NCBI RefSeq assembly: GCF_001663175.1
Contig: NZ_CP016033.1
Span: forward strand, 2,046,001-2,110,000
Reading direction: 5' to 3'
DNA from: Erythrobacter neustonensis
GTDB lineage: Bacteria; Pseudomonadota; Alphaproteobacteria; Sphingomonadales; Sphingomonadaceae
DNA: 64,000 nucleotides
The notes under the pieces were generated by a model that was not told the DNA's origin, made no database searches, and worked only from the letters and a program-made list of their open reading frames with translations. Below, piece after piece: positions 2,950 through 57,599 of the stretch. The first letter of the stretch is position 1; every line of letters begins with the position of its first letter. A program made the translations under genes and the position numbers.

Positions 2950-2965
2950 TGTTTCACGTGAAACA
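2950..2965. promoter_or_regulatory. parS site 1 (ParB/Spo0J binding)
   Basis: TGTTTCACGTGAAACA is a perfect 16-bp palindrome identical to the consensus chromosomal parS. It lies between the convergent secreted-protein gene and the SDR gene. Known role: nucleation of ParB for chromosome segregation and SMC loading, usually near the origin. Two further identical copies occur in this window. Confidence 0.9.
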
Positions 2966-40868: not shown

Positions 40869-41049
40869 GCCCTCGCGGATAGGCGAGCGCTGCGCAAATG
40901 CCAATCACCGCCACGCCCTGCCGCATGCGCGCCTTCGATCCGGCGCGTTCGCGTGACTTTTCAGGGAACTTGCCCACGCCCGCGCCCTTGTCTCCCGTCA
41001 CACAGCGCGCAAGCTTTTGCGAAGGCAGCGCGCAAAGAGGAGAAGAACA

Positions 41050-41457: not shown

Positions 41458-41514
41458 TCAAAACTGCCCGCAGGGGAATTGCCAAGCGGGTAGCGCAGTC
41501 CCTATCTGCACCCC

Positions 41515-43476
41515 ATGGCCCGAACCCCCGCAGGCACCCCCAACGATCCGCGCGGCGCGGAGCGCTTCAACGAAGCGCGCGCCGCGCAGACCGTGGCCGG
41601 TGCCAAACCCGATCTTCAAGGCGGCGTCGATGCGATCCGCGAAACCGTGCGGGTGCTCAAACCGATCCCCGGCGTTTACCGCATGCTCGATCGGCAGGGC
41701 GAGGTGCTCTATGTCGGCAAGGCGCGCAGCCTGAAGGCGCGGGTGGCCAATTACACGCAGGTTGCCGGGCTTTCGGGGCGGCTCCAGCGGATGGTCAGCC
41801 AGACCCGCAGCATGGAGATCATCACCACCAATTCGGAAGCCGAGGCGCTGCTTCTGGAAGCGCAGCTGATCAAGCGGTTCCGCCCGCCGTTCAACGTGCT
41901 GCTGCGCGACGACAAGAGCTTCCCCTTCATCCTGCTGCGCGCCGATCACACATTTCCGCGCATCCAGAAACACCGCGGCGCGCGCCGGGCCAAGGGCAAT
42001 TATTACGGCCCGTTCGCCAGCGCGGGCAGCGTCAACACCACGCTGAACGCATTGCAGAAACTGTTCCTGCTGCGCTCATGCACCGACAGTTTTTTCAACA
42101 ATCGCGACCGGCCCTGCCTGCTTTACCAGATCAAGCGCTGCTCGGCGCCGTGTGTCGGGCGGATCGATGCCGAAGGCTATGATGCGCTGGTGCGGCAGGC
42201 CAAGGATTTCCTGTCGGGCAAATCGGGTGCGGTGCAGGCCGATCTTGAACGGCAGATGGCCGATGCGGCCAAGAACCTCGATTTCGAAACCGCGGCGATG
42301 CTGCGCGATCGCTTGCGCGCGGCGACCTTCATTCAGGGGTCACAGGCGATCAACGCGGTCGGGCTGGGCGATGCCGATGTCTTCGCGCTGGCGGCGAAGA
42401 ACGGGCAGATGAGCGTGCAGTCCTTCTTCATCCGCGGCGGGCAGAACTGGGGCCACCGCGCGCTGTTTCCGCGCCACACCAGCGATGTCGACGAGGCGCA
42501 GGTGCTCGCCGATGTGATGCTGCAATTCTACGAGGAAGTGCCGCCGCCGCCGACAATCCTCGTCGACCGCGAATTGCCCGAGGCCGAGCTGATCGAGGCC
42601 GCGCTGTCCGAACTTGCCGGGCGCAAGGTCAGGCTGTCGATCCCCGAACGCGGCGACCGGCGCAAGCTGATGGCGCAGGCGCAGCGGAATGCGGTCGAGG
42701 CGCTTGATCGGCGGCTGGCGGAGACTGGCACCAAGGCGCGGCTCAACCGCGAGCTTGCCGAATTTCTCGAACTCGACAGCCCGCCGCAGCGGATCGAGCT
42801 TTACGACAACAGCCATATCCAGGGCACCAAGGCGGTGGGCGCAATGGTCGTCGCCGGGCCGGAAGGCTTCGAGAAGGGCCAGTATCGCAAGTTCAACATC
42901 CGCGAGGCGCAATCGAATGATGACTTTGCGATGATGCGCGAAGTCATGGCGCGGCGCTTCCGCAACTTTGCCGAAAGGCAGGAAAACCCCGCGGCGAAAC
43001 CCGGCGGGCACGAAACCGTGCTGCCCGATCTGATGCTGATCGACGGCGGCAAGGGCCAGCTGTCCAGCGTGATGCGCGTGCTCGAGGAGATCGGCATCGC
43101 GGACGAGGTCGCGGTGATCGGGATCGCCAAGGGCCCGCACCACGGGCGCGAGGGGCGCGAGGTGTTTCATTTTCCCGACGGGCGCGAGAAGATGCTGCCC
43201 GTCAATGCGCCGCTGTTGTTCCACCTGCAGAACCTGCGCGACGAGGTGCACCGCTATGTCATCGGCGCGCACCGGGCCAAGCGGTCGAAGGCGATCACCG
43301 CAAGCCCGCTTGACGAGATCCCGGGCATCGGTCCGGCGCGCAAGCGCGCGCTGCTGCTGCATTTCGGCACCGCGAGCAAGGTGCGGGCCGCGGCGCTCGA
43401 AGATTTGCAGCGTGCGCCCGGGGTGAGCGCGACCGTGGCGCGCAAGGTCTATGATTTCTATCACGCGGGCGGGTGA
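41515..43476 (+). CDS. uvrC: Excinuclease ABC subunit C
   Basis: The 653-aa nuclease of nucleotide-excision repair that cuts on both sides of UvrB-marked damage. The GIY-YIG domain starts at GVYRMLDRQGEVLYVGKA (GIY reads GVY). A UVR motif (LERQMADAAKNLDFETAAMLRDRL) is near residue 245, the RNase H-like endonuclease domain follows (IELYDNSHIQGTKAVGAMVV, LIDGGKGQLSSV), and helix-hairpin-helix motifs close the protein (IPGIGPARKRALLLHF). The N terminus carries about 50 extra residues before the first domain. Confidence 0.96.
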   Translation: MARTPAGTPNDPRGAERFNEARAAQTVAGAKPDLQGGVDAIRETVRVLKPIPGVYRMLDRQGEVLYVGKARSLKARVANYTQVAGLSGRLQRMVSQTRSMEIITTNSEAEALLLEAQLIKRFRPPFNVLLRDDKSFPFILLRADHTFPRIQKHRGARRAKGNYYGPFASAGSVNTTLNALQKLFLLRSCTDSFFNNRDRPCLLYQIKRCSAPCVGRIDAEGYDALVRQAKDFLSGKSGAVQADLERQMADAAKNLDFETAAMLRDRLRAATFIQGSQAINAVGLGDADVFALAAKNGQMSVQSFFIRGGQNWGHRALFPRHTSDVDEAQVLADVMLQFYEEVPPPPTILVDRELPEAELIEAALSELAGRKVRLSIPERGDRRKLMAQAQRNAVEALDRRLAETGTKARLNRELAEFLELDSPPQRIELYDNSHIQGTKAVGAMVVAGPEGFEKGQYRKFNIREAQSNDDFAMMREVMARRFRNFAERQENPAAKPGGHETVLPDLMLIDGGKGQLSSVMRVLEEIGIADEVAVIGIAKGPHHGREGREVFHFPDGREKMLPVNAPLLFHLQNLRDEVHRYVIGAHRAKRSKAITASPLDEIPGIGPARKRALLLHFGTASKVRAAALEDLQRAPGVSATVARKVYDFYHAGG

Positions 43477-43524
43477 TACCCGCAGGCGGCGCGGGCAGGG
43501 TGGTTTTGGTGCGGCCCTGACCCC

Positions 43525-43564
43525 GGTTAGACCCCGTTCAGACCCGCGTTAGAGCCGTTTTGCT
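43525..43564. repeat. parS-associated iteron block (copy A)
   Basis: Three phased units, GTTAGACCCC (43526), GTTCAGACCC (43536) and GTTAGAGCC (43548), lie 11-12 bp apart and are followed by GTTTTGCT (43557-43564). The block ends 15 bp before parS site 2. A matching block in opposite orientation accompanies parS site 3. The repeats lie in the intergenic space after uvrC. Confidence 0.7.
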
Positions 43565-43579
43565 GCCGGTTTGCAGCAC

Positions 43580-43595
43580 TGTTTCACGTGAAACA
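43580..43595. promoter_or_regulatory. parS site 2 (ParB/Spo0J binding)
   Basis: Perfect TGTTTCACGTGAAACA, identical to site 1, between the convergent uvrC and OmpA-family genes. The iteron block lies on its left and a terminator on its right. Confidence 0.92.
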
Positions 43596-43602
43596 CTGCA
43601 AG

Positions 43603-43639
43603 AAAAAAGGGGCGGACCGATGCGGCCCGCCCCCTTTTT
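43603..43639. terminator. Bidirectional intrinsic terminator
   Basis: AAAAAAGGGGCGG, a short loop, then CCGCCCC(C)TTTTT, a GC-rich stem with one bulge flanked by A-run and T-run. It can terminate uvrC on the plus strand and the OmpA-family gene on the minus strand, which converge here. Confidence 0.85.
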
Positions 43640-43643
43640 GCAC

Positions 43644-44549
43644 TTACATCCCGTCGAGCGCCTTGCTCACCAGGATATTGACCGAAACGCGGCGGTTCTG
43701 CGCGCGCCCGGCAGCGGTGGTGTTGTCCGCAGCCGGATCGGCGGTCGCCATGCCGGTCGGGGTCAGCATGCGGTAAGGCTTCCACTTGCAGACCTGCTGC
43801 AGGTGGTTGACCACGGCCGCAGCGCGCTTTTCCGACAGCGTCTGGTTGACCTCCTGCGAGCCGGTGATGTCGGTGTAGCCGAGCACCAGCATCAGCGAGT
43901 TCTCGTCCGCACCGGCGGTCTGCGCAGCGGCGCAAAGTTCGTTCTTCGCCGCCGGGCTCAGGGTCGCACGGCCGGTGTCGAAATAGACGTTGGTCGTGCC
44001 CTTGAGGTTGTACTTGTCGATGTCGCCCAGACGGCCGCGCAGCGCTTCGGTGGCGGCAGCGTTCTGCTGGATCGCCGCGCCCTGTTCGCCGAACTGCTGC
44101 TGCGTCCCGCCGCGGATCATCGCCGCGATCATGCGGTCATCGCTGGTGAAGCGCACCTCGCTGGCGACCAGACCTTCGGCATATTTCGAGGTCTTGATAG
44201 TGACGGGCAGGCCGTTGAGCAGCGCCGACTGGTCGAGCGTCTTGTTGCCGATGCCGAGGAAACCGCCGCGGGTGCGGATTTCGGTTTCGCTGTGCAGCGT
44301 GACCATCGTCACCGTGCCGTCATCCCCGGTGATCTGCAGACGCGAACCCTTGCGCGCCGAAATGATCCCGGAAACGCGCGGGCCTTCCTCCATTTCCGCA
44401 AGCGGGGGGAGGTTGCCGTAGACGGTGGTTTCCATGTCGTAGTTGGCCTGGCCTGCGGGCGCGGTCTGCGCGGCAAGGCCCGATGCCGCGGCGGCGCCCA
44501 AAAGCGCGGCCAGCATGATGCGGCGGGGGGTGTTCATGGCGGTTTTCAC
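43644..44549 (-). CDS. OmpA-family outer-membrane protein
   Basis: A 301-aa exported protein. Signal peptide (RRIMLAALLGAAAASGLAAQ) is followed by a DUF5666-like or OB-like beta domain (VSGIISARKGSRLQITGDDGTVTMVTL). The C-terminal peptidoglycan-binding OmpA domain contains NVYFDTGRATLSPAAKNEL and GRAQNRRVSVNIL. GTG start chosen because GGAGCAACA lies 7 bp before it; the ATG four codons later has no such site. Two cysteines in the OmpA domain may pair. Links outer membrane to cell wall. Confidence 0.88.
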   Translation of the reverse strand: MKTAMNTPRRIMLAALLGAAAASGLAAQTAPAGQANYDMETTVYGNLPPLAEMEEGPRVSGIISARKGSRLQITGDDGTVTMVTLHSETEIRTRGGFLGIGNKTLDQSALLNGLPVTIKTSKYAEGLVASEVRFTSDDRMIAAMIRGGTQQQFGEQGAAIQQNAAATEALRGRLGDIDKYNLKGTTNVYFDTGRATLSPAAKNELCAAAQTAGADENSLMLVLGYTDITGSQEVNQTLSEKRAAAVVNHLQQVCKWKPYRMLTPTGMATADPAADNTTAAGRAQNRRVSVNILVSKALDGM

Positions 44550-44735
44550 TGATTGTTGCTCCTGACATTGGGCCCGCGATCCCGGTCGGGCCCCTATGCG
44601 TCGTGTTGCGCGGCGTCCGGTTGTTGGCCGGCACCTTGCCCGTACATGAACGCGCGTGCAAACACCCCGTCAGGAGCGGGTAACCGGGTTTCCGGTTGCG
44701 GTGAGCCGAAGGTCAAGGCACGCGGCCAAACCCGG

Positions 44736-46562
44736 TCAACGTCCCAATTCTGCCGCAATCCAGCGGTCGATCTTGGATTCGAGCACAACCAGCGGCAGCC
44801 CGCCGGTGTTCAGGATCTGATCGTGGAATTCGCGAATGTCGAACCGCTTGCCAAGCCTCGTTTCCGCCCGCTTGCGCAGTTCCTGGATCTTGAGCGCGCC
44901 GATCTTGTAAGCCAGCGCTTGCCCTGGGATCGCGATGTAGCGGTCGACTTCGGCAACCGCATCGGTGCGCGACATGCCCGAATTGGTCAGCATGTAGGTG
45001 ATCGCCTGATCGCGGGTCCACCCCTTGGTGTGGATCCCGGTGTCGACCACCAGCCGCATCGCGCGCAGCTGTTCGTCCTGCAAGGTGCCGTAACGGTTCC
45101 AGGGGTCCTTGTAGAACCCCATCTCGTAGCCCAGCGTCTCGGCATAGAGCGCCCAGCCTTCGACATAGGCCGTGGTGCCGCCGAACCGCATGAAGGCGGG
45201 CAGCGCCTCGTTTTCTTGAGCCAAGCTGATCTGGAAGTGATGCCCCGGCGCGCCTTCGTGCAGGTAGAGCGTCACGATCCCCGGCGTGGTGCGCGTGGGC
45301 AGATCATAGGCGTTGAAATAGAACACGCCGGGCCGCGTCCCATCGGCCGAGCCCTGCTCATACGATCCGCCCGCTTCGAACTGTTCGGTCGCCGGATCAT
45401 AGGGCCGGATTTCGAGCGGCGTCTTGGGCACCTTCGAAAACAGCGCGCCGATCCGTGCATCGACGTCGCGACCGGTCTGGTAATAGGCCTCGGTCAGCGC
45501 CTCGCGGCTTTTGGGCTGGAACTTGGGGTTGGTGGCGACATAGTCGAAGAACTGCGCCAGCGTGCCCTTGAAGCGCACCTCCTTCTTCAGCTTTTCCATC
45601 TCGCCCCGGATCCGCGCCACCTCGGACAGGCCGAGCTGGTGGATGGTGTCGGGATCGAGCGGGAGCGTGGTCGAATCCTCGGCCAGCAGCGCGTAGAGTT
45701 CCTTGCCGCCCTTCATCTGCGACAGGCCGATGCTGTCGCGCGCGGCGGGCAGATATTCATCGCGCAGGAAATTGCGCAGACGTTCGGTTGCAGCGTAAAG
45801 TTCGGTAGTCTTGGCCTGATAGGCCGCGGTCAGCCGGGTGCGATCCGCGGGGGATACCTCATCGGGGAACGCCTTGCTCGGCGCCATGAAGGGCGAGTCG
45901 GCGAGCGGGGTGTCAAGCTGCGTGGTCAGCTGCGTGACCATGATCCCGACGGTCAACTTGGTTTCGAGCACGCCTGCGCGCATCCCCTGCCGGAACCGCC
46001 CGATCGCGCGGTCGAGGAAGGCGATGTAATCGTCGTGGCGCGAAAGGTTGTCTTCGTAGTTCGCGAGCGTCTTGAACGGCGCGGCCCCCTTGCCACTGGC
46101 AAAGTTGGGGTAGGAATTGTGGAAGCCGAAGAAGTGGTTGAGCGGCCGCACCTCGGTCAGCGCACGCACCGCATCGGTCGTGCCGGCAAGCGCGCGTTCC
46201 TGCGTGTAACGGAACACGTCATAGGCCAGCTGGTCGGTCGCATCGAGGCTGTCGCGGTCGATCTGTGCCAGCAGCGCAAGGTTGAGCTTGGTATCGGTGC
46301 GCGCGGCGATGAAATTCGAGTCGGTCAGAAAATCGCCGAGACGGTCGGCCCCCTCGTCGTCGCCGCGATAAAGGCGGCTGAGCGGATCGAGTGCAAGCGC
46401 GCGCGCATCGGCATCGGCGAACAAGGCAAACAGGCGGTCGTGGCTGCTTTCCGATGCACTGGTCGCGGCAACCGCCTCGGCAGGCGCGGACTGCGCCAGC
46501 GCAGGCGCTGCAGCCGCCAGCAACAGCGCGCTCGAAGTGGCAAGGGCAAGGCGCAGGGTCAT
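44736..46562 (-). CDS. Exported DUF885 metallopeptidase-like protein
   Basis: A 608-aa protein with a signal peptide (LALATSSALLLAAAAPALAQ). The DUF885 signature HEGAPGHHFQ and the downstream YVEGWALYAE resemble a zinc metallopeptidase active site of the M3/M32 clan (HExxH variant with a Glu helix). It is probably a periplasmic peptidase of unknown specificity. The sequence before the stop shows no obvious terminator. Confidence 0.87.
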   Translation of the reverse strand: MTLRLALATSSALLLAAAAPALAQSAPAEAVAATSASESSHDRLFALFADADARALALDPLSRLYRGDDEGADRLGDFLTDSNFIAARTDTKLNLALLAQIDRDSLDATDQLAYDVFRYTQERALAGTTDAVRALTEVRPLNHFFGFHNSYPNFASGKGAAPFKTLANYEDNLSRHDDYIAFLDRAIGRFRQGMRAGVLETKLTVGIMVTQLTTQLDTPLADSPFMAPSKAFPDEVSPADRTRLTAAYQAKTTELYAATERLRNFLRDEYLPAARDSIGLSQMKGGKELYALLAEDSTTLPLDPDTIHQLGLSEVARIRGEMEKLKKEVRFKGTLAQFFDYVATNPKFQPKSREALTEAYYQTGRDVDARIGALFSKVPKTPLEIRPYDPATEQFEAGGSYEQGSADGTRPGVFYFNAYDLPTRTTPGIVTLYLHEGAPGHHFQISLAQENEALPAFMRFGGTTAYVEGWALYAETLGYEMGFYKDPWNRYGTLQDEQLRAMRLVVDTGIHTKGWTRDQAITYMLTNSGMSRTDAVAEVDRYIAIPGQALAYKIGALKIQELRKRAETRLGKRFDIREFHDQILNTGGLPLVVLESKIDRWIAAELGR

Positions 46563-46709
46563 GGGCTGAATTTCCGGTCGCTTGAGGGAATGGCAAGCGC
46601 GGCGCGCTACGTCAGCGATGCGCGCCCTGCAAGCTCTGCGGCGACCAGCGTCATCCCGCCTTCGACCGGCGGCATGGCGGGTAGGCCGCTTGGGAAAAGG
46701 CAGCCCGTA

Positions 46710-48206
46710 TCAGGTGGGCGCGAACCGCGCTGCATGAAAGGCCGCGTCCTTGCGCAATTGGTCATGTTCGACCCAGACGGAATGCGTGCCCGAGCAGATC
46801 TTGTGCGGCAGCGCGAGGCGGCAGATCGGCCCTGCCGCGATATTGCCTGCATCAAGGATCGCGCATTCGGACGTGCCAGAGTTCTCGTCGATCAGGAAGG
46901 TGATCAGATAGCCATCATCCTCGCCGGTAGCGCCTTTCCGGGGGATCATCGGACTTTCGCTCGCATAGACGCCTTCTGGCAGGGACAAGACCTGTTCTTC
47001 GCCGGTCTCGGTGTCGTGGCGGACATAGCCGTTGAACAGGAACCAGCCGGGCCGCGTGGTGGTCGACCAGACATACCGGCTCTTTTGCATCGCATAGGCG
47101 GGATTGATCATCCCGAATTCGACGATGCGCTCGGTTAGCCGTTCTTCGCGGGTTTCGCCGGTCTTGAGGTTGAACCGCCAGCGGTGCAGCCGGCTCTGGA
47201 AGGAGTGTTCGTCGACATAGGCCATCATGTGGCTATAACGTCCCATTTCCTCGAGCGGGTCGGGCATGGGCTTGGCCTGATGATAGCCTTCGAGGATCAC
47301 CTCGTCGCCGTCCTCCCACGCGTTGGTCCAATGGAGCACGTAGGTCGGCGCAGCCTCGAACCAGCGAATGTCCTCGGGCTGACCATGCCGCGGGATCAGT
47401 GCGAAACGCGTGGGCACGCCGTCATGGATGCGGGCGGCGTGGATGTTGCGCTCCAGCAACTCGCCATCCCAGTAAAGCGGCATGTCGTTGAGGATCGACC
47501 AGTTCTTGGTGATCGCCATGTCATGCGGCAGGCGCGGGCCGGGCAGCGGGACGGGGAGATAATGGACCAGCGCGCCGCTGCGATCGACCACGCCGTAGTG
47601 CATGAAGGGGGCATGCTTGGAGTAGTTGAAGAACATCATTTCCCCGGTCGTCTCGTCGACCTTGGGGTGGGCCGAAATGCCATCGAGCGGCACCCAGGGC
47701 GCCTTGCCCCGGCTCGCCAGCGTCACGGGGTCGAGCATCCACGCCTCGCCGCACTGATACAGCGTCGCGTAGGCCGTGCCGGCATGAACGATGATATCTG
47801 TCGAACCGGTGTCCTTGAGGCCCCCGTGCGCGCCGAAACCGGGGCGTACGCTCGTGCCCCACGGGTCCATCAACCCGCCCCACAACGATCGGCCCGCAAT
47901 CTGCTCGGCCTCGAAACAATGCGTGCGCACGAAGCGGTTGCGATAGCTTGCCTTGCCACCCGAAATGTTGACCTGATGGATCATCGCATCGCCATCGAAG
48001 GGGTGATGCCGGCCCAGCGGCTGATGCACCTGATTTTCGGTGTTGCGCAGGTAAATGCCGTCGATATCGGCAGGAATTGCGCCTTCGATCACGCGCAGTT
48101 CGGCCACATCGACCTCTTCGTGGCACGGGGTCCACGGTCCGGTCAGATAGGGGTGGTTCGACGGCTCCAGCGTGGTTTTTACCGGCGGATGGCGCGTGAT
48201 CTGCAT
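46710..48206 (-). CDS. Carotenoid-oxygenase-family dioxygenase (lignostilbene-dioxygenase-like)
   Basis: A 498-aa seven-bladed beta-propeller non-haem iron oxygenase. The four iron-binding histidines are seen at about residues 180 (SAHPK), 227 (LPHDMAI), 292 (VLHWTNAW) and 475 (GTHSVWV), a spacing like that of the Novosphingobium stilbene-cleaving enzymes. Substrate may be a stilbenoid, apocarotenoid or related phenylpropanoid. Start follows GGGAGAGAG. It diverges from the universal stress protein gene, with a perfect FNR-type box between them. Confidence 0.92.
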   Translation of the reverse strand: MQITRHPPVKTTLEPSNHPYLTGPWTPCHEEVDVAELRVIEGAIPADIDGIYLRNTENQVHQPLGRHHPFDGDAMIHQVNISGGKASYRNRFVRTHCFEAEQIAGRSLWGGLMDPWGTSVRPGFGAHGGLKDTGSTDIIVHAGTAYATLYQCGEAWMLDPVTLASRGKAPWVPLDGISAHPKVDETTGEMMFFNYSKHAPFMHYGVVDRSGALVHYLPVPLPGPRLPHDMAITKNWSILNDMPLYWDGELLERNIHAARIHDGVPTRFALIPRHGQPEDIRWFEAAPTYVLHWTNAWEDGDEVILEGYHQAKPMPDPLEEMGRYSHMMAYVDEHSFQSRLHRWRFNLKTGETREERLTERIVEFGMINPAYAMQKSRYVWSTTTRPGWFLFNGYVRHDTETGEEQVLSLPEGVYASESPMIPRKGATGEDDGYLITFLIDENSGTSECAILDAGNIAAGPICRLALPHKICSGTHSVWVEHDQLRKDAAFHAARFAPT

Positions 48207-48267
48207 GTCTCTCTCCCTCGGGTGAGAAGATGCTTGAGCCGCGCCCCGCTGGCAAGCGCACGAAATT

Positions 48268-48281
48268 TTGATCCTGATCAA
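48268..48281. promoter_or_regulatory. Perfect FNR/Anr/FixK box TTGAT-N4-ATCAA
   Basis: TTGATCCTGATCAA matches the consensus exactly. It lies 53 bp before the universal stress protein start and 61 bp before the divergent carotenoid-oxygenase start. Oxygen-responsive control of Usp genes by FNR-type regulators is well known, so activation of the stress protein at low oxygen is the main prediction. An effect on the oxygenase is possible. Confidence 0.8.
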
Positions 48282-48334
48282 GGCGGATGCCCGGGCAGGA
48301 GCGCATAAGCGTGAAGCATATCGGGAGAGCTGCC

Positions 48335-49150
48335 ATGAAAACCATTCTGCTGCACATCGACCACGACCGCGCCATGCCCGCACGCCTGCAGGTCGCGCTT
48401 GATCTGGCGCGGGCCTGCAACGGCCACATCACCTGCCTTCAGGCGGTCAGCTACGATGTTTTCATGCCCGGCGATTTCTATGGCTCGGCGATCGCGGCGG
48501 CGCTGCCGGTGATCAAGGAGAATGCCGAGAAGCTGCGCGCGCAGACCGAAGCCGCACTCGAACATGAAGGCGTGCCGTTCGACTGGCGGTTCGAATACGG
48601 GGTCGCCGCTCAGCGCCTGATCGCTGCCTCGCCGCTGGCAGATATCGCGCTACTCGGCCCGGCCGAGACGGGAGGCGACGGACGCGGGCCTTCGGCGCTG
48701 GTGGGCGATGTGGTGCTGCGGGCGGGCCTGCCGGTGCTGGTGGTGCCGGAAAACGCCAAAAGCTTTGATGTGGGCGCGCCGATGCTGGTCGCCTGGAACG
48801 GTTCGGCCGAAAGCGCCCGCGCGCTGCGGGCAGCGGTGCCGCTGTTGGCCTGCGCGTGCGAAGTCACGCTCGCCTGCGTTACCGAAGATGCGGCGAAGAC
48901 GGGGTTCGATCTGCCATCGACCGAAGGCGCGAAATATCTCGCCCGCCACGGCATCGCCTGCGAAATGGTCGAACTTCCGCGGGGCGAGGGGGATGTCGCG
49001 GCAACCCTGCTGGCCGCCGCCGGAGTGCGCGGCTGCGGGCTGATCGCGATGGGTGCCTATGGCCACACGCGCCTTGCCGAATTGGTGCTTGGCGGCGTCA
49101 CGCGCCGGATGCTGAGCGCGCCCGAAATTCCCGTTCTGCTGGCGCATTAG
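48335..49150 (+). CDS. Tandem-domain universal stress protein (UspA family)
   Basis: A 271-aa protein with two Usp domains. The C-terminal domain carries an ATP-binding Gly motif (GAYGHTRLAELVLGGVTRRML). The N-terminal domain is more divergent but keeps a leading strand (KTILLHIDHDRA). The ATG follows GGGAGAG. With the FNR box upstream it is probably induced under low oxygen. Confidence 0.9.
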   Translation: MKTILLHIDHDRAMPARLQVALDLARACNGHITCLQAVSYDVFMPGDFYGSAIAAALPVIKENAEKLRAQTEAALEHEGVPFDWRFEYGVAAQRLIAASPLADIALLGPAETGGDGRGPSALVGDVVLRAGLPVLVVPENAKSFDVGAPMLVAWNGSAESARALRAAVPLLACACEVTLACVTEDAAKTGFDLPSTEGAKYLARHGIACEMVELPRGEGDVAATLLAAAGVRGCGLIAMGAYGHTRLAELVLGGVTRRMLSAPEIPVLLAH

Positions 49151-49200
49151 TTTGTCCGCACGCCATCCGGCGGGCAAAATCCTCGCTCACACGCCCTGTG

Positions 49201-49246
49201 GGCGCGTCGCTGCGGGCGGCCGGTCGGCCGTGCGGCGCTGCGCGCC
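49201..49246. repeat. Imperfect inverted repeat between convergent genes
   Basis: The core CGGCCG-GT-CGGCCG (49217-49230) is enclosed by outer arms GGCGCG (49201) and CGCGCC (49241). It lies between the stops of the Usp and tesB genes and could form a long hairpin in either transcript, but no T-run follows, so a terminator role is uncertain. Confidence 0.5.
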
Positions 49247-49256
49247 GACACGGTCC

Positions 49257-50183
49257 TTATGATTTCGGAACCCGTTTGCGCATCATGCCTTCCTGCGCGA
49301 CGCTGGCGACAAGTTCTCCGGCGAGGTTGAAGATCCGCCCGCGGTTGAACCCGCGCCCGCCGCCCGACCACGGCGCATCGGTCGCGTAAAGCAGCCATTC
49401 GTCCGCCCGCGCATCGCGGTGGAACCACAGTGCATGGTCGAGGCTCGCGCCGACAAGTTCGTTGCGCATCCACGACAGGCCATGCGGCAGCGCGCTGGTG
49501 CCGAGCAGCGTGTAGTCACTGGCATAGGTGATGATCGCGCGGTGCAGTTCGGGCGTGTCGTCTGCACCGGTGATCGGCGCGCAGATCCGGAACCAGCTGT
49601 GCGCGCGCGGCTCTTTCGGCTCGCGGCTCATCCAGTGCAGCGCGTCGCAGGTGCGCATCTCGATCGGTCGCGCGCGCAGCATCATCCGGCGCTGCTGGTC
49701 GGACAGCCTGTCGCCCCATGCCGCGGCAAGGTCGCGGCGCTGGTCCATGTCGGTGCGCAGGGTGTCGGGCAGCGGCACATCGGGCATCGGCGAATCGCTG
49801 TGTTCCAGTCCCTCCTCGGGAAGCTGGAAACTGGCGGTGAGGTTGAGGATAGGGACCGCGATCCCGTCCTCGTTCTCCTGCGCTGCCACCACCCGGCGAT
49901 TGGCAAAGCTGCGCCCGTCGAAATCGCGCTCGATGCGGTATTCGATCGGCGCGCCCTCGCGTCCGCCGCGCAGGAAATAGGCGTGGAGCGAATGCGCGCG
50001 CTTGCCGTCGGTCACGCTGGCTTGTGCGGCCTGAAGCGCCTGCGCGAGCACCTGCCCGCCGAACACCCGCCCGATCCCGTCGGTCTGCGGCGGTCCGGCA
50101 AAGACATCGGCGGCGCGTTTTTCGACCGTCAGCAACCGGATCAGACCGGCGGCAAGCTGCGCAGGGGTGGGTTCCTCACTCAT
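49257..50183 (-). CDS. tesB: Acyl-CoA thioesterase II
   Basis: A double hot-dog thioesterase, 308 aa, hydrolysing acyl-CoA. Characteristic segments: GRVFGGQVLAQALQAA, HSLHAYFLRGG, the second hot-dog with SLDHALWFHRD, and the terminal GRGFNRGRIFNLAGELVASVAQEG. Catalytic Asp (ASDYTLLGTS) and the Gln/Thr pair region are present. No operon partner is obvious. Confidence 0.95.
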   Translation of the reverse strand: MSEEPTPAQLAAGLIRLLTVEKRAADVFAGPPQTDGIGRVFGGQVLAQALQAAQASVTDGKRAHSLHAYFLRGGREGAPIEYRIERDFDGRSFANRRVVAAQENEDGIAVPILNLTASFQLPEEGLEHSDSPMPDVPLPDTLRTDMDQRRDLAAAWGDRLSDQQRRMMLRARPIEMRTCDALHWMSREPKEPRAHSWFRICAPITGADDTPELHRAIITYASDYTLLGTSALPHGLSWMRNELVGASLDHALWFHRDARADEWLLYATDAPWSGGGRGFNRGRIFNLAGELVASVAQEGMMRKRVPKS

Positions 50184-50205
50184 CGCGCAAGGCCATGCGT
50201 GCCGG

Positions 50206-51096
50206 TCAGGATCGCGTCAAGCCGAGCTTGCGCATTGCGCGGAATGCATAGGCCTTGGCGTAATTCTGCTGCGGGAAGCGGCCGGGTGCGCGCGGGCGAA
50301 ACCCGCGTTCGCGCAGGATCGCATTGAAGGTGCGCGCATCGCTTTCGCGGTAGCTCCATTCCGAACGCCACGTGATCGACAGCGAGACCGATGGGGCCGG
50401 GCCATTGCGCACGAAATGCGGTGCCATCACCGGCACGAACAAGGCCTCGCCCGGGCCGATCGCGAACGGAGTGCCGTGGGCCAGCATTGCATCGTCCCAG
50501 CGCAATTCACGCGGGCCGCCGGTGTGATAGGTCTCGTGCGCTTCGTCGGGCACGAACCGCGTGTCGCCGGCGGGAAACTGCGTCATCACCTTGCTGCCGC
50601 GGATCTGGAGCAGGATGTTGTGTTCGGGATCGAAATGGTAGGGCGTCATCGAATTGGGGCTGGAGACGAAGATGAATCCCTGCGGCTTGAGCAACGCGCC
50701 GGTCGCCGCTTCGATTTCGGCGCGGATCTCGCCGAGCAGCCCCATCAGCAAGGCCTCGTAGGCGGGGACCTGTTCGATATTCTTGAGCACCGCCCAGCTT
50801 TCGGCCTCGGCCACGCGGCGGATCGTTTCGGCGATCGTCAGCCCGTTGGGGCCCGGCTTGCCATCGACCCCGATCGGCAGATCGCCGCGGTTGTATTCGA
50901 CCGATGCGGGCGGCAGCCCTTCGGCCAGCTGCGCCAGCGCCTCGATCTCGAGCAGCGGATGGCTGGTGAGCGAATGCTTCAGGATATGCGGGACTTCGGG
51001 ATAGTGCGCGGCAAACTGCGCACGTGCGGAGGGATCGAAGACGGTCACAGGCAGCGCGGTGTCATGGGGCGCGGCAAACCGGGCAGGGGCGTTCAT
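50206..51096 (-). CDS. Cupin-like (JmjC-related) protein
   Basis: A 296-aa protein with a JmjC/cupin_8-like metal site: H-x-D in MTPYHFDPEHNILLQIRGSK and a distal His in APHFVRNG, fitting an Fe(II)/2-oxoglutarate hydroxylase. The N-terminal half is helical and conserved (FAAHYPEVPHILKHSL). The target is unknown; relatives hydroxylate proteins or peptides. It shares ATGA with the upstream GNAT-like gene, so they are translationally coupled and probably act together. Confidence 0.85.
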   Translation of the reverse strand: MNAPARFAAPHDTALPVTVFDPSARAQFAAHYPEVPHILKHSLTSHPLLEIEALAQLAEGLPPASVEYNRGDLPIGVDGKPGPNGLTIAETIRRVAEAESWAVLKNIEQVPAYEALLMGLLGEIRAEIEAATGALLKPQGFIFVSSPNSMTPYHFDPEHNILLQIRGSKVMTQFPAGDTRFVPDEAHETYHTGGPRELRWDDAMLAHGTPFAIGPGEALFVPVMAPHFVRNGPAPSVSLSITWRSEWSYRESDARTFNAILRERGFRPRAPGRFPQQNYAKAYAFRAMRKLGLTRS

Positions 51097-52262
51097 GCGT
51101 GGCTCCTCGGGCGGGTTTCATAGGCCTTGAGCAGGCGGAAAACGGCGCGGCGCACGGGGCCGCCGATTGCAATGTTACGGCTGACCATCGCGCGCCTGGA
51201 GCGCCACAGCCGTTCGATCATCGGGTGGCCCTGGACCGCGCAGCTGTCGGCCCAGCCGAAGCCCGGCTTTTCGAGCAGCGCGAGGTTTTCGAGCTGCAAC
51301 AGCATGCCGGGCGAAAACCGCGCATAGGCTTCGTCGAAAGCGGTCTTGTAACTGTAGACGCCGGGCAGGGTAAGGAAATTGACCAGCATCGCAATCGCGC
51401 GGCCATCGATCCTGAGCGCGAGCCGTTCGAGCCGTCCCGCTGCCGCTGCGCCGGCCAGCGCCTCGATGAACAATGCCCGCGTGTCGGGGGACGAGACCAG
51501 CGCGGAACCCGCCGCGCCTTTCCAGCCCGCCGCCTCGAGCGCCAGAAACTCGGCGGTCCATGCGGCAAGCCCCGCATCGCCCTCCACCCGGTCGAAGGTG
51601 AGCGTGCCTTCTTCGGCAAGCCGGTTGTGCTGGCGGCGAAGCTCCTTGCGCTTCTTCGCGCTCATCGCCGCATCGCAATAGGCGGCGGCCGAAACCTTCC
51701 CTTCGAGCATCGCGCGTTCCTCGCGCGCGGCGACGTAATGCGCGCGCGGTGCGGCGGCGAGCACGCGGGTCAATGCGGCATCGAGCGGACCGCCCTCGGG
51801 CAGCAGCGGCAGATGCAGAAACAGCGCGCTGCCCGGATTGTCGTCAAAATGGGCCAGGACATCGCGCCAGAACGCTGCCTCATGGCCCGCCATCACCAGC
51901 GGCACCCCGCAAAAGGCGTTGGCATGCAGCCAGCCGGCGAGATGCGGCAAAGGGTGGCCATAGTAGCGCGCCGGCCGTTCTACCGGCATCAGCCCCGCCA
52001 GACGCCCGCCGTGATACCACGCCGCGATCCGCACCCCGCGCGCTGTGCCCCATTGGTCCAGCGCGGGGCGCAGGTACCATGCCTCGAAAAAGGGATTGGG
52101 TTCGGCGGCATGGGCGACCAGCCGCTCCCATTCGGCAAGAAAGGCTGCGTCATGGCAATCATCGCGGCCGATCAGGCGCAGCCGTCCGCCCGGAGCCGCG
52201 GCAGGCAGTGCGTCGGTGCTGTCTGCACGGGTGCGAAAACTGATCGCACGGGCCATGTTCAT
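51093..52262 (-). CDS. GNAT-family (CelD/BioF2-like) acetyltransferase
   Basis: A 389-aa protein of the CelD/BioF2 type with two GNAT-like halves: an N-terminal WERLVAHAAEPNPFFEAWYLRPAL, and a C-terminal FLALEAAGWKGAAGSAL and ALRIDGRAIAMLVNFLTLPGVYSYKTAFDEAYARFSPGMLL. Family members transfer acyl or aminoacyl groups to polysaccharides or peptides. Start MNMARAIS; the second Met is an alternative. Coupled to the cupin-like gene downstream. Confidence 0.85.
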   Translation of the reverse strand: MNMARAISFRTRADSTDALPAAAPGGRLRLIGRDDCHDAAFLAEWERLVAHAAEPNPFFEAWYLRPALDQWGTARGVRIAAWYHGGRLAGLMPVERPARYYGHPLPHLAGWLHANAFCGVPLVMAGHEAAFWRDVLAHFDDNPGSALFLHLPLLPEGGPLDAALTRVLAAAPRAHYVAAREERAMLEGKVSAAAYCDAAMSAKKRKELRRQHNRLAEEGTLTFDRVEGDAGLAAWTAEFLALEAAGWKGAAGSALVSSPDTRALFIEALAGAAAAGRLERLALRIDGRAIAMLVNFLTLPGVYSYKTAFDEAYARFSPGMLLQLENLALLEKPGFGWADSCAVQGHPMIERLWRSRRAMVSRNIAIGGPVRRAVFRLLKAYETRPRSHA

Positions 52263-52390
52263 CGCCGGAAAAATTCCCTGCCTTGGCGCAGATATTCCGC
52301 GCCTCCCGGCATGCCTCATCGCACAGCGCGATTAAGAAAGCCTCAGCACGCGCACCTGCTGTCCGAAGCGGGGACAGGCGCTGGCGCACA

Positions 52391-52424
52391 AATAAACCCC
52401 GCCGGACAGATCGGCCGGCGGGGT
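52391..52424 (-). terminator. Intrinsic terminator of hppA
   Basis: On the minus strand, ACCCCGCCGG, a 9-nt loop and CCGGCGGGGT form a 10-bp stem followed by TTTATTTG. It lies about 50 bp after the hppA stop. Confidence 0.85.
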
Positions 52425-52471
52425 GTACGTGCCGCGGCGCGATCGCCGCGTCAGATCAGGGACTTCGGGCT

Positions 52472-54637
52472 TCAGCCAGCACCATGCGCCAGCGCGGCAA
52501 GCAGCAGCAGCGCGACGATGTTGGTGATCTTGATCATCGGGTTGACCGCCGGGCCGGCGGTGTCCTTGTAAGGATCGCCGACCGTATCGCCCGTCACCGC
52601 AGCCTTGTGGGCTTCGGAACCCTTGCCGCCGTGGTGGCCGTCCTCGATATACTTCTTGGCGTTGTCCCATGCGCCGCCGCCGGCGGTCATCGACAATGCG
52701 ACGAAGAGGCCGCCCACGATCACACCCAGCAGCAATGCACCCAGTGCGGCAAAGCCGTTGTCCTGTCCGGCAATCGCGGTGATCACAAAATAGACCACCA
52801 CGGGTGCCAGCACGGGCAGCAGCGAGGGGATGATCATCTCCTTGATCGCCGCCTTGGTGACAAGGTCGACCGTGCGGGCATAGTCGGGCTTGGACGTGCC
52901 CGCCATGATCCCCGGATTGTCGCGAAACTGGTTGCGCACGTCGAGCACCACATCGCCCGCCGCGCGGCCCACCGCGGTCATCCCCATCGCCCCGAACAGG
53001 TAGGGCAACAGCGCGCCGAGCAAGAGGCCGACGATCACGAAGGGATTTTCAAGGCTGAAATCGACATTCGCATCCGGGAAGAAGGTGCGAAGGTCGGTGG
53101 TGTAGGCGGCAAACAGCACCAGCGCGCCAAGGCCCGCGGAACCGATGGCATAGCCCTTGGTCACGGCCTTGGTGGTGTTGCCGACCGCGTCGAGCAGATC
53201 GGTCTTTTCGCGCACGCTGTCGTCCAGACCCGCCATTTCGGCAATGCCGCCGGCATTGTCGGTGACGGGGCCATAGGCATCGAGCGCGACGACCATGCCC
53301 GCCAGCGCCAGCATCGCGGTGGCCGCATAGGCGATGCCCATGAGTCCGGCGAGACCATAGGCGATGATGATGCCCGCGACGATCACCAGTGTCGGCAGCG
53401 CGGTCGACTCCAGACTGATCGCAAGCCCCTGGATCACGTTGGTGCCGTGCCCCGTTTCCGAAGCCTTGGCGATCGAGCGCACCGGGCGATACTTGGTGCC
53501 GGTGTAATATTCGGTGATCCAGATGATCAGCCCGGTGATCGCAAGGCCCAGCAGCGCACAGAGGAACAGGTCCATGCCGGTAAAGCCCAGCGATACGGTT
53601 TCCTGCACCACCGCGCGTCCGGTGACCGGATCGAAGGCTTCGGTGAGGGTTTCGTTCGTGCCGCCGATCACCGCGCCCATGTCGCCCAGCGCATAGGTCA
53701 TCACGGCATAGATCGCCGGGATCGAGGTGACCGCGGTGACGATGAAGCCCTTGTACATCGCCCCCATCACATTGGTTCCGCCGCCAAGGCGCACGAAATA
53801 GGTGCCGAGAATCGAGGTGACGATGCACACGCCCCCGACCAGCAGCGGCAGCGCCATCATCGGCAGCAGCATGTCGCCAAGCCCGGTGAGCAGCAGTGCG
53901 GTCAGCACCATCGTTGCGCCGACGGTGACGACGTAGGTTTCGAACAGGTCGGCGGCCATGCCTGCACAGTCGCCGACATTGTCGCCGACGTTGTCCGCGA
54001 TCACGGCGGGGTTCCTCGGATCATCCTCGGGGATGCCCGCTTCGACCTTGCCGACAAGGTCTGCGCCAACGTCGGCCGCCTTGGTGAAGATCCCGCCGCC
54101 AAGCCGCGCGAAGATCGAGATCAGAGAGGCACCGAAGGCCAGGCCGACAAGCCCGTCGATCACTTCGCGGCTCGCAGCGGTAAGGCCCATCGGCCCGATC
54201 ATGACGGCAAAGAACACCGCGATCGCCAGCAGTGCAAGGCCGGCCACCAGCATGCCGGTGATCGCGCCCGCGCGGAAGGCGAGCGTCAGGCCCGCCTGCA
54301 ACCCGGTGCTGGCGGCTTGGGCGGTGCGCACGTTGGCACGCACCGAGATGTTCATCCCGATATACCCAGCGACGCCCGACAGGATCGCGCCGGTCAGAAA
54401 GCCGATGACTGCCGTGGTGCCGAGCGCAAAGGCGACGATCGCGGCAACGACGACGCCGACGATCGCGATGGTGGTGTATTGGCGGTTGAGGTAGGCCTGC
54501 GCGCCTTCCTGAATCGCGGCGGCGATTTCCTGCATCCGCGCATTGCCCGCGCTTGCGCCGAGCACCTGGCGGCTGGTGACCACGCCATAGACAATGGCGA
54601 GCAGTCCCAGCCCAATCGATATGAGCAATAGATTCAC
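52472..54637 (-). CDS. hppA: K+-independent H+-translocating pyrophosphatase
   Basis: A 721-aa membrane pump that couples pyrophosphate hydrolysis to proton export. It has about 16 helices and conserved acidic motifs: [32 protein letters not shown] and [17 protein letters not shown]. The motif GNTTKA (residues ~485-490) has Lys where K+-dependent enzymes have Ala, which points to the K+-independent type. Start is a GTG (MNLLLISIG) following GAGAGGGGA. The C-terminal [29 protein letters not shown] is typical. Provides membrane energisation alongside the transhydrogenase. Confidence 0.96.
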
Positions 54638-54827
54638 GAGCAATCCCCTCTCGTTATGTTGCGTCCCCCTTCTGCGAGGGGTGCTCGCGCCTCCCATTAT
54701 CCCTCGGGCGCGATGGGGATGTTGTAGGCGCTTGAACCACGCTGGCAAGAGAGCCGGGATAACAGGGCAACAGCCGCGAAAATCCGCCCGCCGTAACGGC
54801 ATCGGGGCGGCAAAAGCAGAGCGTGGG

Positions 54828-55685
54828 TCAGCCGTGCCGGTAGCCGAGGCGATCGCTTGCGCGCAGCATCGTGCTGCCAAGTTGCAAGGGTGCCTCGCCG
54901 CGCGCGGTCACCGTGCCGATGCGGTGTGCGGGCACGGGAAGAGCGGTATCGGCGGGCGCGGTGAACAGCAGTTCGTAATCATCGCCCCAGCGCATGCAAT
55001 CGTCGGCGCGGGCCGGATCGGCGACGGGGATCGCTACCGGATCGAGCGCGAAGGTCACGCCGCTCGCATCGGCCATGCGCCAGGCGTCGAGCAGCAACCC
55101 GTCGGAAATGTCCATCATTGCCGTGACGTGTGGGGCCAGAGCGCGGCCCTCGGCGAGGCGCGGGACGGGGCGGTTGAAAGCGGCGAGATGGTCGGACGCG
55201 CCTTCGAAGCCCAGCATCGCCCGCCCGACGGGGCCGGTGATCCACACCCCCTCGCCCGCCGCAGCGCCGCTGCGCGAGGGCACTTGCGTATGGCTTGCCC
55301 GCCCGATCGCCGTCAGACCGAAGCAGCGCAGGCCCTTGCCCGCCACGGTATCGCCGCCCAGCAGTGGGGTGGCAAAGGCCCGCAATGCCTCGTGCAAGCC
55401 CTTGATAAAAAGCGCATCATCGCTTCCGAGCATGTGGCCGAGGAGCACGCCGACGGGTTCTGCGCCCTTGGCGGCAAGGTCGGACAGGTTGGTCGTGACC
55501 AGTTTCCAGGCGACATCGGCCATGTCGGCACCTTCGCGAAAATGCGTGCCTTCGACCATCATGTCATGGGTGAGGACCAGCGTTTCGCCCCCCACCATCA
55601 GCACCGCGCAATCATCCGCCAATCCCCGCGCGGCAGAGTGCAAGGGGAGGGCGCGCAGCGCGGCGATGAAATCAGCTTCGTTCAT
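54828..55685 (-). CDS. thiL: Thiamine-monophosphate kinase
   Basis: ATP-dependent conversion of thiamine phosphate to thiamine diphosphate, 285 aa. PurM-like fold signatures: [63 protein letters not shown] and [10 protein letters not shown]. Family length is ~320-330, so this copy is somewhat short at its C terminus. It follows hisG-hisD-nusB on the same strand; the 154-bp gap before it carries parS. Confidence 0.94.
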
Positions 55686-55733
55686 GGCACAGCCCGATTA
55701 GCCGATCGCCGCCCACATGCCTATGGCGCGCGA

Positions 55734-55749
55734 TGTTTCACGTGAAACA
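55734..55749. promoter_or_regulatory. parS site 3 (ParB/Spo0J binding)
   Basis: Perfect TGTTTCACGTGAAACA, identical to the other two copies, between nusB and thiL. The iteron block lies on its right side, 25 bp away. Confidence 0.92.
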
Positions 55750-55774
55750 GCGCTTTTAGTGCCCGCTAACTGAT

Positions 55775-55812
55775 AGCAAAACGGGGCTAACGGGGGGCTA
55801 AAGGGGGTCTGG
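55775..55812. repeat. parS-associated iteron block (copy B)
   Basis: Starts with AGCAAAACGG (55775-55784), the reverse complement of the CCGTTTTGCT end of copy A, followed by GCTAACGGGG (55786) and GCTAAAGGGG (55797) 11 bp apart, then GTCTGG. A further GCTAAC at 55765 sits inside the spacer to parS. Orientation relative to parS is the same as in copy A; spacing to parS is 25 bp instead of 15. Confidence 0.7.
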
Positions 55813-55839
55813 CGCGGTGTCGGAGCGCATCAAAACCGG

Positions 55840-56304
55840 TCAGCGCGCGTCTTTCGCCACCGCGTCGAGGATGCCGTTGACGAACTTGGCCTGACCATCA
55901 TCGAAGAACGCTTTGGCGACTTCGACATATTCGTTGATCACTACTGCGGCGGGAATATCGTGGCGCGCCAGCAATTCATAGGTGCCGGCGCGCAGCACCT
56001 GCAGCATCGCCTTGTCGAGCCGCGTCACGCTCCACCCGGCGGCGAGCTTGCCTGCGACCACGCCGTCGATCTCGTCGCGCCGCGCGGCGACCCCGCGCAC
56101 GACATCGTCGAAGAACAGGACGTCGGCGTCGGCATATTCGGCTTCGTCGAAATCATCGTCGTCGATCGTGCGGCCCAGCCGGTGCTGGTGAAATTCGTCG
56201 AGCAGCCGGGCAAGCGCGGTGCCTTCCATGTGCTGCTGATACAGCGCCTGCACGGCGGCGAGACGCGCGGCCGAGCGGGCCTGCGATTTGGCGGGGTGGT
56301 TCAT
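55840..56304 (-). CDS. nusB: Transcription antitermination factor NusB
   Basis: A 154-aa all-helical RNA-binding protein used in rRNA antitermination. Sequence SAARLAAVQALYQQHMEG and the C-terminal AGTYELLARHDIPAAVVINEYVEVAKAFFDDGQAKFVNGILDAV are canonical. It overlaps hisD by 4 bp (ATGA). Confidence 0.95.
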   Translation of the reverse strand: MNHPAKSQARSAARLAAVQALYQQHMEGTALARLLDEFHQHRLGRTIDDDDFDEAEYADADVLFFDDVVRGVAARRDEIDGVVAGKLAAGWSVTRLDKAMLQVLRAGTYELLARHDIPAAVVINEYVEVAKAFFDDGQAKFVNGILDAVAKDAR

Positions 56305-57599
56305 TTGATCCTCAATTCCACGGACTTGGCGTGGGCGGGCAGCCCCTCGGCATGGGCGAGGGTTGCAGCGGCAGGGCCGATCGCGGCAAATGAGCCTGCA
56401 TCGAGCCCCAGAAAACTGGTGCGCTTCATGAAGTCGAGCACCGACAGCCCGCTCGAAAAGCGGGCGCGGCGCCCGGTGGGCAGCACATGGTTCGGCCCGG
56501 CGACATAATCGCCTACCGCCTCGGGCGTCATCCGGCCAAGGAAGATCGAGCCTGCATGGCGGATCGCGGACAGATAGGGTTCGGGATCGTCGACCGCGAT
56601 CTCGACGTGCTCGGCGGCAAGGCGATTGGCCAGCGCCGGCGCCTCGGCCAGCAGATCATCGACCACGATCATCACGCCATGCGCGTCCCACGATGTGCGC
56701 GCGGTTTTCCCTGTGGCAAGCTGGCCGATCTGCAAGTCGATGCAATCTTCGACCTGCCGCGCAAAACCCGCATCGTCGGTGATCAGGATCGATTGCGAGG
56801 TGGGATCGTGTTCGGCCTGCGACAGCAGATCGGCGGCGATCCAGTCGGGATCGTTCTTGCCATCGGCGATCACGAGGATTTCGGAAGGCCCGGCGACCAT
56901 GTCGATCCCCACCACGCCGTAAAGCTGGCGCTTGGCTTCGGCGACCCAGGCATTGCCCGGGCCGGTGATGACATCGACCGGACGGATACGTTCGGTGCCA
57001 TAGGCGAGCGCGCCCACGGCCTGCGCGCCGCCGATACGCCAGATCTCGTCTACGCCCGCGATGTGCGCAGCGGCCAGCACCATCGGGTTGGCCTCGCCCT
57101 TCGGCGTGGGGGTGACCACCACCAGCCGCTCAACGCCCGCAACGCGCGCGGGGATCGCGTTCATCAGCAGCGAGGAGGGATAAGCCGCACGGCCACCGGG
57201 GACATAGAGCCCGGCCGCATCGACCGCGCGCCAGATCGCGCCCAGCCGCACGCCTGCGGCATCGATGTAATCGCGGTTCTGCGGCAGCTGCGCTTCGTGA
57301 TAGGCCCGGATGCGCGCCGCAGCGAGTTCGAGCGCATCGCGAAGATCGGGGGGGAGCGCGTCATACGCCGCTTCGCACGCCTCGCGGGTGATGACCCAGT
57401 CGGCATCGTCGACCAGCGCATAGCCATCGAACCGCTGGCTGTATTCGACGAGCGCATCATCGCCCCGGCCTTTGACCGCCTGCAGGATCGTCTGCACCTG
57501 GCCTGCAACATCGGTGTCGGATTCGCGCCGGGCATCGACCAGCCGTGCGAAAGTGCGTTCGAAATCGGCGTCCCGGGTGGAGAGGAGGCTAACCGTCAT
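56301..57599 (-). CDS. hisD: Histidinol dehydrogenase
   Basis: Last two oxidations of histidine synthesis, 432 aa, zinc enzyme. Motifs: [69 protein letters not shown], catalytic EHVEIAV and [23 protein letters not shown]. Overlaps hisG upstream by 4 bp and nusB downstream by 4 bp, so hisG-hisD-nusB is a coupled operon. Confidence 0.97.

Follow-up and report, generated by a model that had tools for sequence, protein, structure and literature searches.

The stretch of DNA analysed here, referred to as the window, comprises 64,000 nucleotides of the Erythrobacter neustonensis chromosome (contig NZ_CP016033.1, C1:2046001-2110000, in a genome of 3,090,363 bp held in one contig). It contains three perfect copies of the 16-bp parS palindrome TGTTTCACGTGAAACA, and a search allowing up to three mismatches also returns three (0.05 expected by shuffling). 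Two of these sites, parS 2 and parS 3, are bordered on one side only by an array of about 90 bp, built from units of about 11 bp with the consensus GGGGTCTGNAG on the strand that reads away from parS. The third, parS 1, has no array. The features concerned are collected in Table 1.

Table 1. parS sites, arrays and neighbouring features, in window positions.
Feature	Position	Strand	Basis or remark
parS 2, perfect TGTTTCACGTGAAACA palindrome	43580..43595		pattern match
Array of parS 2, about 8 units of about 11 bp, one side	43490..43579	-	reads away from parS 2; outer end approximate
parS 3, perfect palindrome	55734..55749		pattern match
Array of parS 3, one side	55750..55838	+	reads away from parS 3; outer end approximate
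parS 1, perfect palindrome without array	2950..2965		flank periodicity p = 0.985 and 0.400
uvrC, on array side of parS 2, convergent with next gene	41515..43476	+	TIGR00194
OmpA-family outer-membrane protein gene, other flank of parS 2	43644..44549	-	OmpA-type matches, all below curated cut-offs
thiL, thiamine-phosphate kinase, flank of parS 3	54828..55685	-	TIGR01379
nusB, on array side of parS 3	55840..56304	-	TIGR01951
Terminator-like G+C-rich hairpin between A and T runs, between parS 2 and the OmpA gene	43603..43643		by eye

Outward from parS 2, units of the array on the minus strand read GTGCTGCAAAC CGGCAGCAAAA CGGCTCTAACG CGGGTCTGAAC GGGGTCTAACC GGGGTCAGGGC, and those on the plus strand beyond parS 3 read GCGCTTTTAGT GCCCGCTAACT GATAGCAAAAC GGGGCTAACGG GGGGCTAAAGG GGGTCTGGCGC. 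Periodicity of the flanks was assessed independently of the unit sequence, by comparing the power of A and G with that of dinucleotide shuffles at a threshold of p <= 0.025. The array side of parS 2 gives p = 0.005 (200 shuffles) against p = 0.835 on the opposite side, and the corresponding values for parS 3 are p < 0.005 (0/200 shuffles) and p = 0.935.

A preliminary description of this DNA, made from its letters, had reported that the same block adjoins parS 2 and parS 3, with the landmark CCGTTTTGCT lying 15 and 25 bp from the palindrome in the same orientation relative to parS. This is correct. The landmark occurs in exactly two copies in the window, at 43555-43564 (+) and 55775-55784 (-), and gapless alignment to parS identifies it as a degenerate unit of the array itself (AGCAAAACGG), being the second unit at parS 2 and the third at parS 3. 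The 10-bp difference thus amounts to a single step in a register kept throughout the genome. The accompanying formula, GTTAGRCCCC every 11-12 bp, captured a genuine repeat in too literal a form: the exact 10-mer is present only once, at 43526, matches with one mismatch number 4 against 3.2 expected (not significant alone), and the block beside parS 3 holds CAGACCCCC, TTTAGCCCCCC and GTTAGCCCC in its place. The spacing is better given as about 11 bp, and the unit as GGGGTCTGNAG when read outward from parS.

The observation extends far beyond two sites. The host genome carries 52 perfect and 11 one-mismatch parS, where base composition predicts about 0.00008 perfect copies. The trmE-gidA-gidB-parA-parB region accounts for eight of these 63 sites (all at 950-955 kb), and the other 55 are dispersed over the whole chromosome. 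Rather than clustering near the origin, as is normal for parS, the dispersed sites have a flat density with distance from parAB (11, 10, 7, 9, 10 and 8 per 257-kb bin; distance is taken from parAB, the origin being unmapped). Among 398 genomes drawn across the phylum, the runner-up has 12 sites. The closest two dispersed parS are 8,265 bp apart, and none of 5,000 random sets was equally spread; only this minimum gap is significant, the overall regularity of spacing being indistinguishable from chance (coefficient of variation 0.83, p 0.11). Distance from parAB is greater for the 10 dispersed sites with one mismatch than for the 45 perfect sites (Mann-Whitney p = 0.002), as if constraint weakened away from that locus. 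Together, the 8.3-kb minimum spacing and this distance bias suggest selection on placement at the scale of the chromosome.

Reading the flanks of all 63 host parS showed that, at most dispersed sites, the G-rich strand of the units reads away from parS on one side only. The periodicity test finds a periodic flank at 43 of the 55 dispersed sites, never on both sides, and at none of the eight cluster sites; by either of two criteria, an array is present at 49 of the 55. That the cluster beside parAB is bare gives no support to the earlier proposal of an origin element. With one mismatch allowed, two units in direct succession match the genome 82 times, compared with 2 matches for the reversed pattern. 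When units were spaced at 10 bp, the counts were near chance (20 versus 14 for the control), the correct spacing being 11. Gapless alignment of the 44 strong arrays from the edge of parS reveals a composition that oscillates about every 10.75 bp over the first 90 bp or so, the power of A near this period being 1.0 on the array side and at best 0.012 on the other. Composition in the far flank levels out after a few bases, and outside the palindrome and the units there is no similarity. That a composite element exists, consisting of parS and a one-sided phased array, is close to certain.

To define the register, we assembled 138 arrays from 16 genomes: the 44 strong host arrays, 78 from 14 named relatives and 16 from a further relative, G021. 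The relatives' arrays were drawn, subject to a score, from 80 of at least 120 scanned loci, and the G021 share comes from 16 of 20 loci; as the scanned loci had been chosen for a perfect parS followed by two adjacent units at a gap of 8-38 bp, this set is biased towards strong units and intact parS. Of 402 exact GGGTCT units, 392 deviate from the series 12.4 + 10.87n bp, counted from parS, by no more than 2 bp (R = 0.89 near a 10.9-bp period), which bears out the face-of-helix geometry suggested in the preliminary description. The other ten are 2.0-3.7 bp off register and fall mostly in three arrays (L126, L121 and the host array at 2778802). Mean unit positions are 12.4, 23.1, 34.0, 44.9 and 55.7 bp from parS and onward, and 224 successive spacings of 10-12 bp comprise 219 of 11 bp, 4 of 10 bp and 1 of 12 bp. 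The standard deviation of unit position is 0.71-0.84 bp for the first five units and 0.9-1.3 bp for the few units beyond. Drift by random insertion would widen the spread along the array, so the level values over the first five units argue against it.

A period of 10.87 bp in so tight a register could also arise if the array were structural DNA, a phased flexible or curved segment wrapped around a protein such as gyrase or HU, or around a ParB complex, with no need of a dedicated sequence-specific binder. As such a model would allow, the unit drifts between species but retains one phase rich in purines and another rich in G/C. However, A and G outnumber T and C at their respective phases on one strand (for example, G 91% versus C 5% at +36, and A 66% versus T 5% at +20), so that the element is polar, and its polarity relative to parS is fixed. 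Bendability alone would not require this, being indifferent to the strand that carries GGG or AA, and we consider a purely structural array unlikely. It is likely that the array is polar and bound by protein.

The unit itself varies. It contains mostly TCTG in the host and mostly TCTA in G021 and some other genomes, and some arrays of a further relative, G034 (L264, L269, L273 and L276), use a different unit such as AGCGNCAAAGC at the same period of about 11 bp; L276 has five AGCGNCAAAGC-like units. The unit consensus may therefore be species-specific. These variants bear on a further possibility, that the G-rich strand acts by forming a G-quadruplex or R-loop. A canonical G-quadruplex motif is found in 69 of the 138 arrays, as against 0.65% of random 110-mers from the window. 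Yet the other half of the arrays have no such motif, arrays of the AGCGNCAAAGC type have no G runs (by eye), the TCT between the G runs would be conserved needlessly, and the phase with parS would go unexplained. We regard this possibility as highly improbable.

Across the genus, parS sites were counted with up to one mismatch to TGTTTCACGTGAAACA in 114 genomes, some of them incomplete. The distribution is sharply divided: 47 genomes have at least nine sites, 67 have at most four, and none lies between. The low group, whose genomes otherwise hold at most three further sites of the form TGTTCCACGTGGAACA, includes G021, which has three TGTTTCACGTGAAACA sites and 52 copies of TGTTCCACGTGGAACA, bringing the genomes with dispersed sites to 48. 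The 30 genomes (of 114) in which strict triple-unit arrays were found all belong to these 48, and the reversed-pattern control matched in three genomes (1, 5 and 2 matches), all array-rich. Outside the genus, none of 272 genomes of the order has the composite pattern, and each holds at most seven sites of the TGTTYCACGTGRAACA type. A contig scan recovered at least 120 composite loci, and the 80 titles listed name Erythrobacter, Porphyrobacter, Erythrobacteraceae, Sphingomonadales and unclassified Alphaproteobacteria.

The positions of the element are also conserved. Loci from relatives, 147 in all and each chosen for a perfect parS, were compared with the host: 69 have the same two neighbouring genes as a dispersed host site, representing 65 distinct places and covering 35 of the 55 host sites. 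Orthologous arrays are 27-72% identical to those of the host, with unit and register kept, and host and relative carry the array on the same flank in 56 of 57 distinct pairs (30 sites), the exception being site 139614 versus L094. In G034 and another relative, G066, 7 of 14 and 4 of 6 fetched dispersed parS share both flanks with a host site (11/20). These results largely refute the idea of a dispersed mobile repeat, or one of the repetitive extragenic palindromic (REP) kind, that carries parS by accident. There are indeed many copies, in numbers that vary between species (0-52 perfect parS each in 37 genus genomes including the host). However, nothing is alike beyond palindrome and units. Copies at non-orthologous places with shared ends, as expected of a REP or a miniature inverted-repeat transposable element (MITE), are not what is seen, positions and side being conserved and the far flanks having no sequence in common, so that an accidental repeat is hardly credible.

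We next consider which protein may read the palindrome. The host par locus is canonical (parB-parA-gidB-gidA-trmE), and the genome yields a single ParB_N match, in a protein with ParB_N, helix-turn-helix and C-terminal domains. In G021 (L244-L263 and L284), TGTTCCACGTGGAACA is the sequence at the sites next to parB (419815-423161) as well as at the dispersed ones, and 19 of 20 fetched arrays adjoin it or a variant differing by one or two bases. As cluster and dispersed sites share this palindrome, one reader, presumably ParB, would serve both kinds. Comparison of 21 ParBs (the start codons of relatives being approximate) showed that at the helix-turn-helix position two after a conserved Asn, the G021 protein alone has His; Met is found in the host and in four further species with dispersed sites, and Gln (14) or Gly (1) in the 15 species without them. 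By our own mapping, the conserved residue is Asn178 in the Caulobacter numbering of PMC7383237; the four specificity positions given in the accessible portion of that paper do not include His180. The occurrence of the His change and the shared TGTTCCACGTGGAACA in one lineage is a correlation, short of proof, but one that argues for a single protein reading both kinds of site. G021 is, in addition, a possible candidate for a natural, coordinated switch of ParB and parS specificity.

A branch with 100/100 support separates the ParBs of the six dispersed-site species from those of the 15 species without, and the dispersed-site clade sits on a long branch of 0.56 changes per column. This long branch, the single ParB_N protein and the usual anchoring of arrays at parS would all suit a model in which the units are weak landing sites for ParB itself, for example contacts of the closed, cytidine triphosphate (CTP)-bound clamp. 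Against this, the units look unlike the parS half-site by eye, in G021 as well (half-site GTGGAACA, units GGGGTCTAGAG-like), and a derivation of the units from the ParB half-site was held unlikely on the same grounds. Arrays are also present where parS is missing or broken. A landing strip for ParB is, in our assessment, quite unlikely.

Arrays without an intact parS number nine in the host (by eye): two have a split palindrome, two a half palindrome and five none. For two host loci, L224 and L233, the G021 counterparts L246 and L247 (recognised by eye from flanking sequence) hold the palindrome, so that parS was probably lost in the host while the array stayed. At L224 (~899.8 kb) and L226 (~1791.8 kb), a 22-bp insert of almost identical sequence interrupts parS and could form two tiny hairpins (CTAC-TTC-GTAG and AGC-TTC-GCT); L246 of G021 is unsplit. 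Genes resembling recA and alaS (by eye from translations) flank a strong array at L228 (~2914.4 kb) that has no parS. A gene for an autoregulated array-binding protein was sought beside arrays without parS, and the five of ten loci covered gave no candidate.

Gene orientations, taken from a home-made codon-usage gene caller, place 39 of the 44 strong-array sites between genes: 20 between convergent genes, 8 and 7 between co-directional genes in the two orientations and 4 between divergent genes. Convergent pairs are over-represented relative to the window background of 8/54 pairs, or 4/23 where at least 80 bp separate the genes. Together with the C-rich strand and its 11-nt repeat, this raises the possibility of an RNA element, either a Rho utilisation site (pyrimidine-C every 11 nt) or a 3'-end terminator with parS as a roadblock, and the array-side gene does have a Rho-compatible orientation at 28 of 39 sites. 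At the other 11, however, it points the wrong way, so the orientation that a Rho site needs is not consistently kept, and the near-equal split of co-directional pairs indicates that the array is not oriented by transcription. A register with a DNA palindrome would be superfluous for an RNA signal. Furthermore, Rfam gave no match at gathering score in window positions 40000-58000, and the folding of array RNA is unremarkable (z -0.7 to -1.4). An RNA element thus appears very unlikely. A role like that of the FtsK-orienting polar sequences (KOPS) was also rejected, since array orientation by replichore is mixed along the chromosome (by eye).

We therefore favour, with a probability of roughly 0.4, a two-part element in which parS is bound by ParB and the polar array by a putative second, sequence-specific protein, so marking ParB sites that are not centromeric. 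In the same reading, a subclade would have turned ParB-parS into a chromosome-wide, two-protein organising system and kept the bare cluster as its true centromere. The preliminary description had considered a protein acting with ParB, and helical geometry, conservation of side and position between species and the strand-polar consensus all fit such a protein. ParB would bind the dispersed palindromes in the way it binds those of the cluster next to parAB. The array units would be weak, helically phased 11-bp binding sites, which the putative second protein would fill as a polar oligomer extending outward from the ParB-parS anchor, with one protomer per helix turn on one face. The element could then let ParB act across the whole nucleoid, in chromosome organisation or in division control as Noc does in Bacillus, without creating rival centromeres. 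In its simplest form, it might act as a one-sided hindrance to ParB clamp sliding or condensin loading. Some special arrangement seems called for because, according to the available text of PMC5815017, Caulobacter tolerates a second parS cluster without severe cost only within ~500 kb of the native one; some 50 dispersed parS would imply a different use of ParB.

Several observations weigh against this interpretation. Of the 48 congeners with dispersed sites, 18 gave no strict array, which leaves only 30 that have one. In G034 and G066, only 6 of the 20 dispersed parS have a periodic flank (p <= 0.025), with L273 periodic on both sides; most of those examined have no array or use another unit, which implies that an array is not needed to tolerate dispersed parS and weakens the proposed insulating step. 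The preliminary description had named parS without the block, in the host or its relatives, and the block without parS as findings that would tell against the association. Both occur in part: in the host, six of the 55 dispersed parS (99999, 660775, 782930, 1146005, 1294808 and 2048950, the last being parS 1) have no array, and the nine arrays without intact parS show the converse, although the association in the host genome is still strong. Caulobacter is itself an imperfect precedent, since it coped fairly well with a single ectopic insertion of a strong parS pair, whether at +200 kb or close to the terminus, to judge from the same portion of PMC5815017. The frequency of G-quadruplex motifs is a further point on this side. 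Finally, the case for ParB at the dispersed sites comes from sequence and one natural site change.

If correct, the model would amount to a new class of element for organising bacterial chromosomes. The usual view is that centromeres in bacteria stay within the origin region because extra parS elsewhere can harm segregation, as the accessible part of the Caulobacter study indicates (PMC5815017). In a clade of which many members have tens of parS around the chromosome, often with an oriented array in tight helical register, the way in which a cell tells its centromere from other ParB sites would become testable, as would the limits and direction of ParB clamp sliding and condensin loading, and a Noc-like function without a ParB paralogue. 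The variant site of G021 would, in turn, serve as a natural experiment in ParB specificity.

Among known systems, ParR/parC, TubR/tubC and the omega heptads also consist of direct repeats that are polar, close to 11 bp in length and aligned along a single face of the helix. The host arrays are likewise tandem direct repeats of about 11 bp (219/224 spacings). Centromeres of the ParR/parC type are, however, single plasmid loci beside their own operon, whereas the host has about 50 chromosomal copies, most of them at a ParB site, and no parM/parR operon adjoins the two window blocks (uvrC/ompA and nusB/thiL), the places where gene identities were checked.

The host resembles other chromosomal ParABS systems in its identical 16-bp palindrome, its canonical locus and its eight clustered parS-like sites. 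It differs in having 55 of 63 parS all around the chromosome, most with a phased array, where chromosomal parS normally number one to a few, and up to 20-23, near the origin (PMC7333895, in the text available to us). Dispersal over the chromosome is shared with Noc and its binding sites (NBS) in Bacillus, a palindromic site of the ParB superfamily that is scattered around the chromosome, as outlined in the portion of PMC4331003 at hand. The host site is nonetheless parS rather than NBS, and with one ParB_N match the genome has no distinct ParB paralogue. We know of no phased arrays at NBS.

A strong anchor followed by a polar array of weak, helically spaced sites on which an oligomer assembles cooperatively is also seen in the low-affinity DnaA arrays of oriC and in the RctB iterons and parS2 of Vibrio cholerae chromosome II (PMC6070618 and PMC3688505, as far as their accessible sections describe them). 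Those systems are origins, whereas the parS of the host parAB cluster have no array, and the unit is unlike a DnaA box by eye. The titles and abstract openings listed from the open-access literature gave no description of such an element, which leaves its absence from print unproven. The combination is not one known to us, while its components each resemble a known kind: parS itself, dispersal of the Noc type, direct-repeat centromeres and anchored oligomer arrays.

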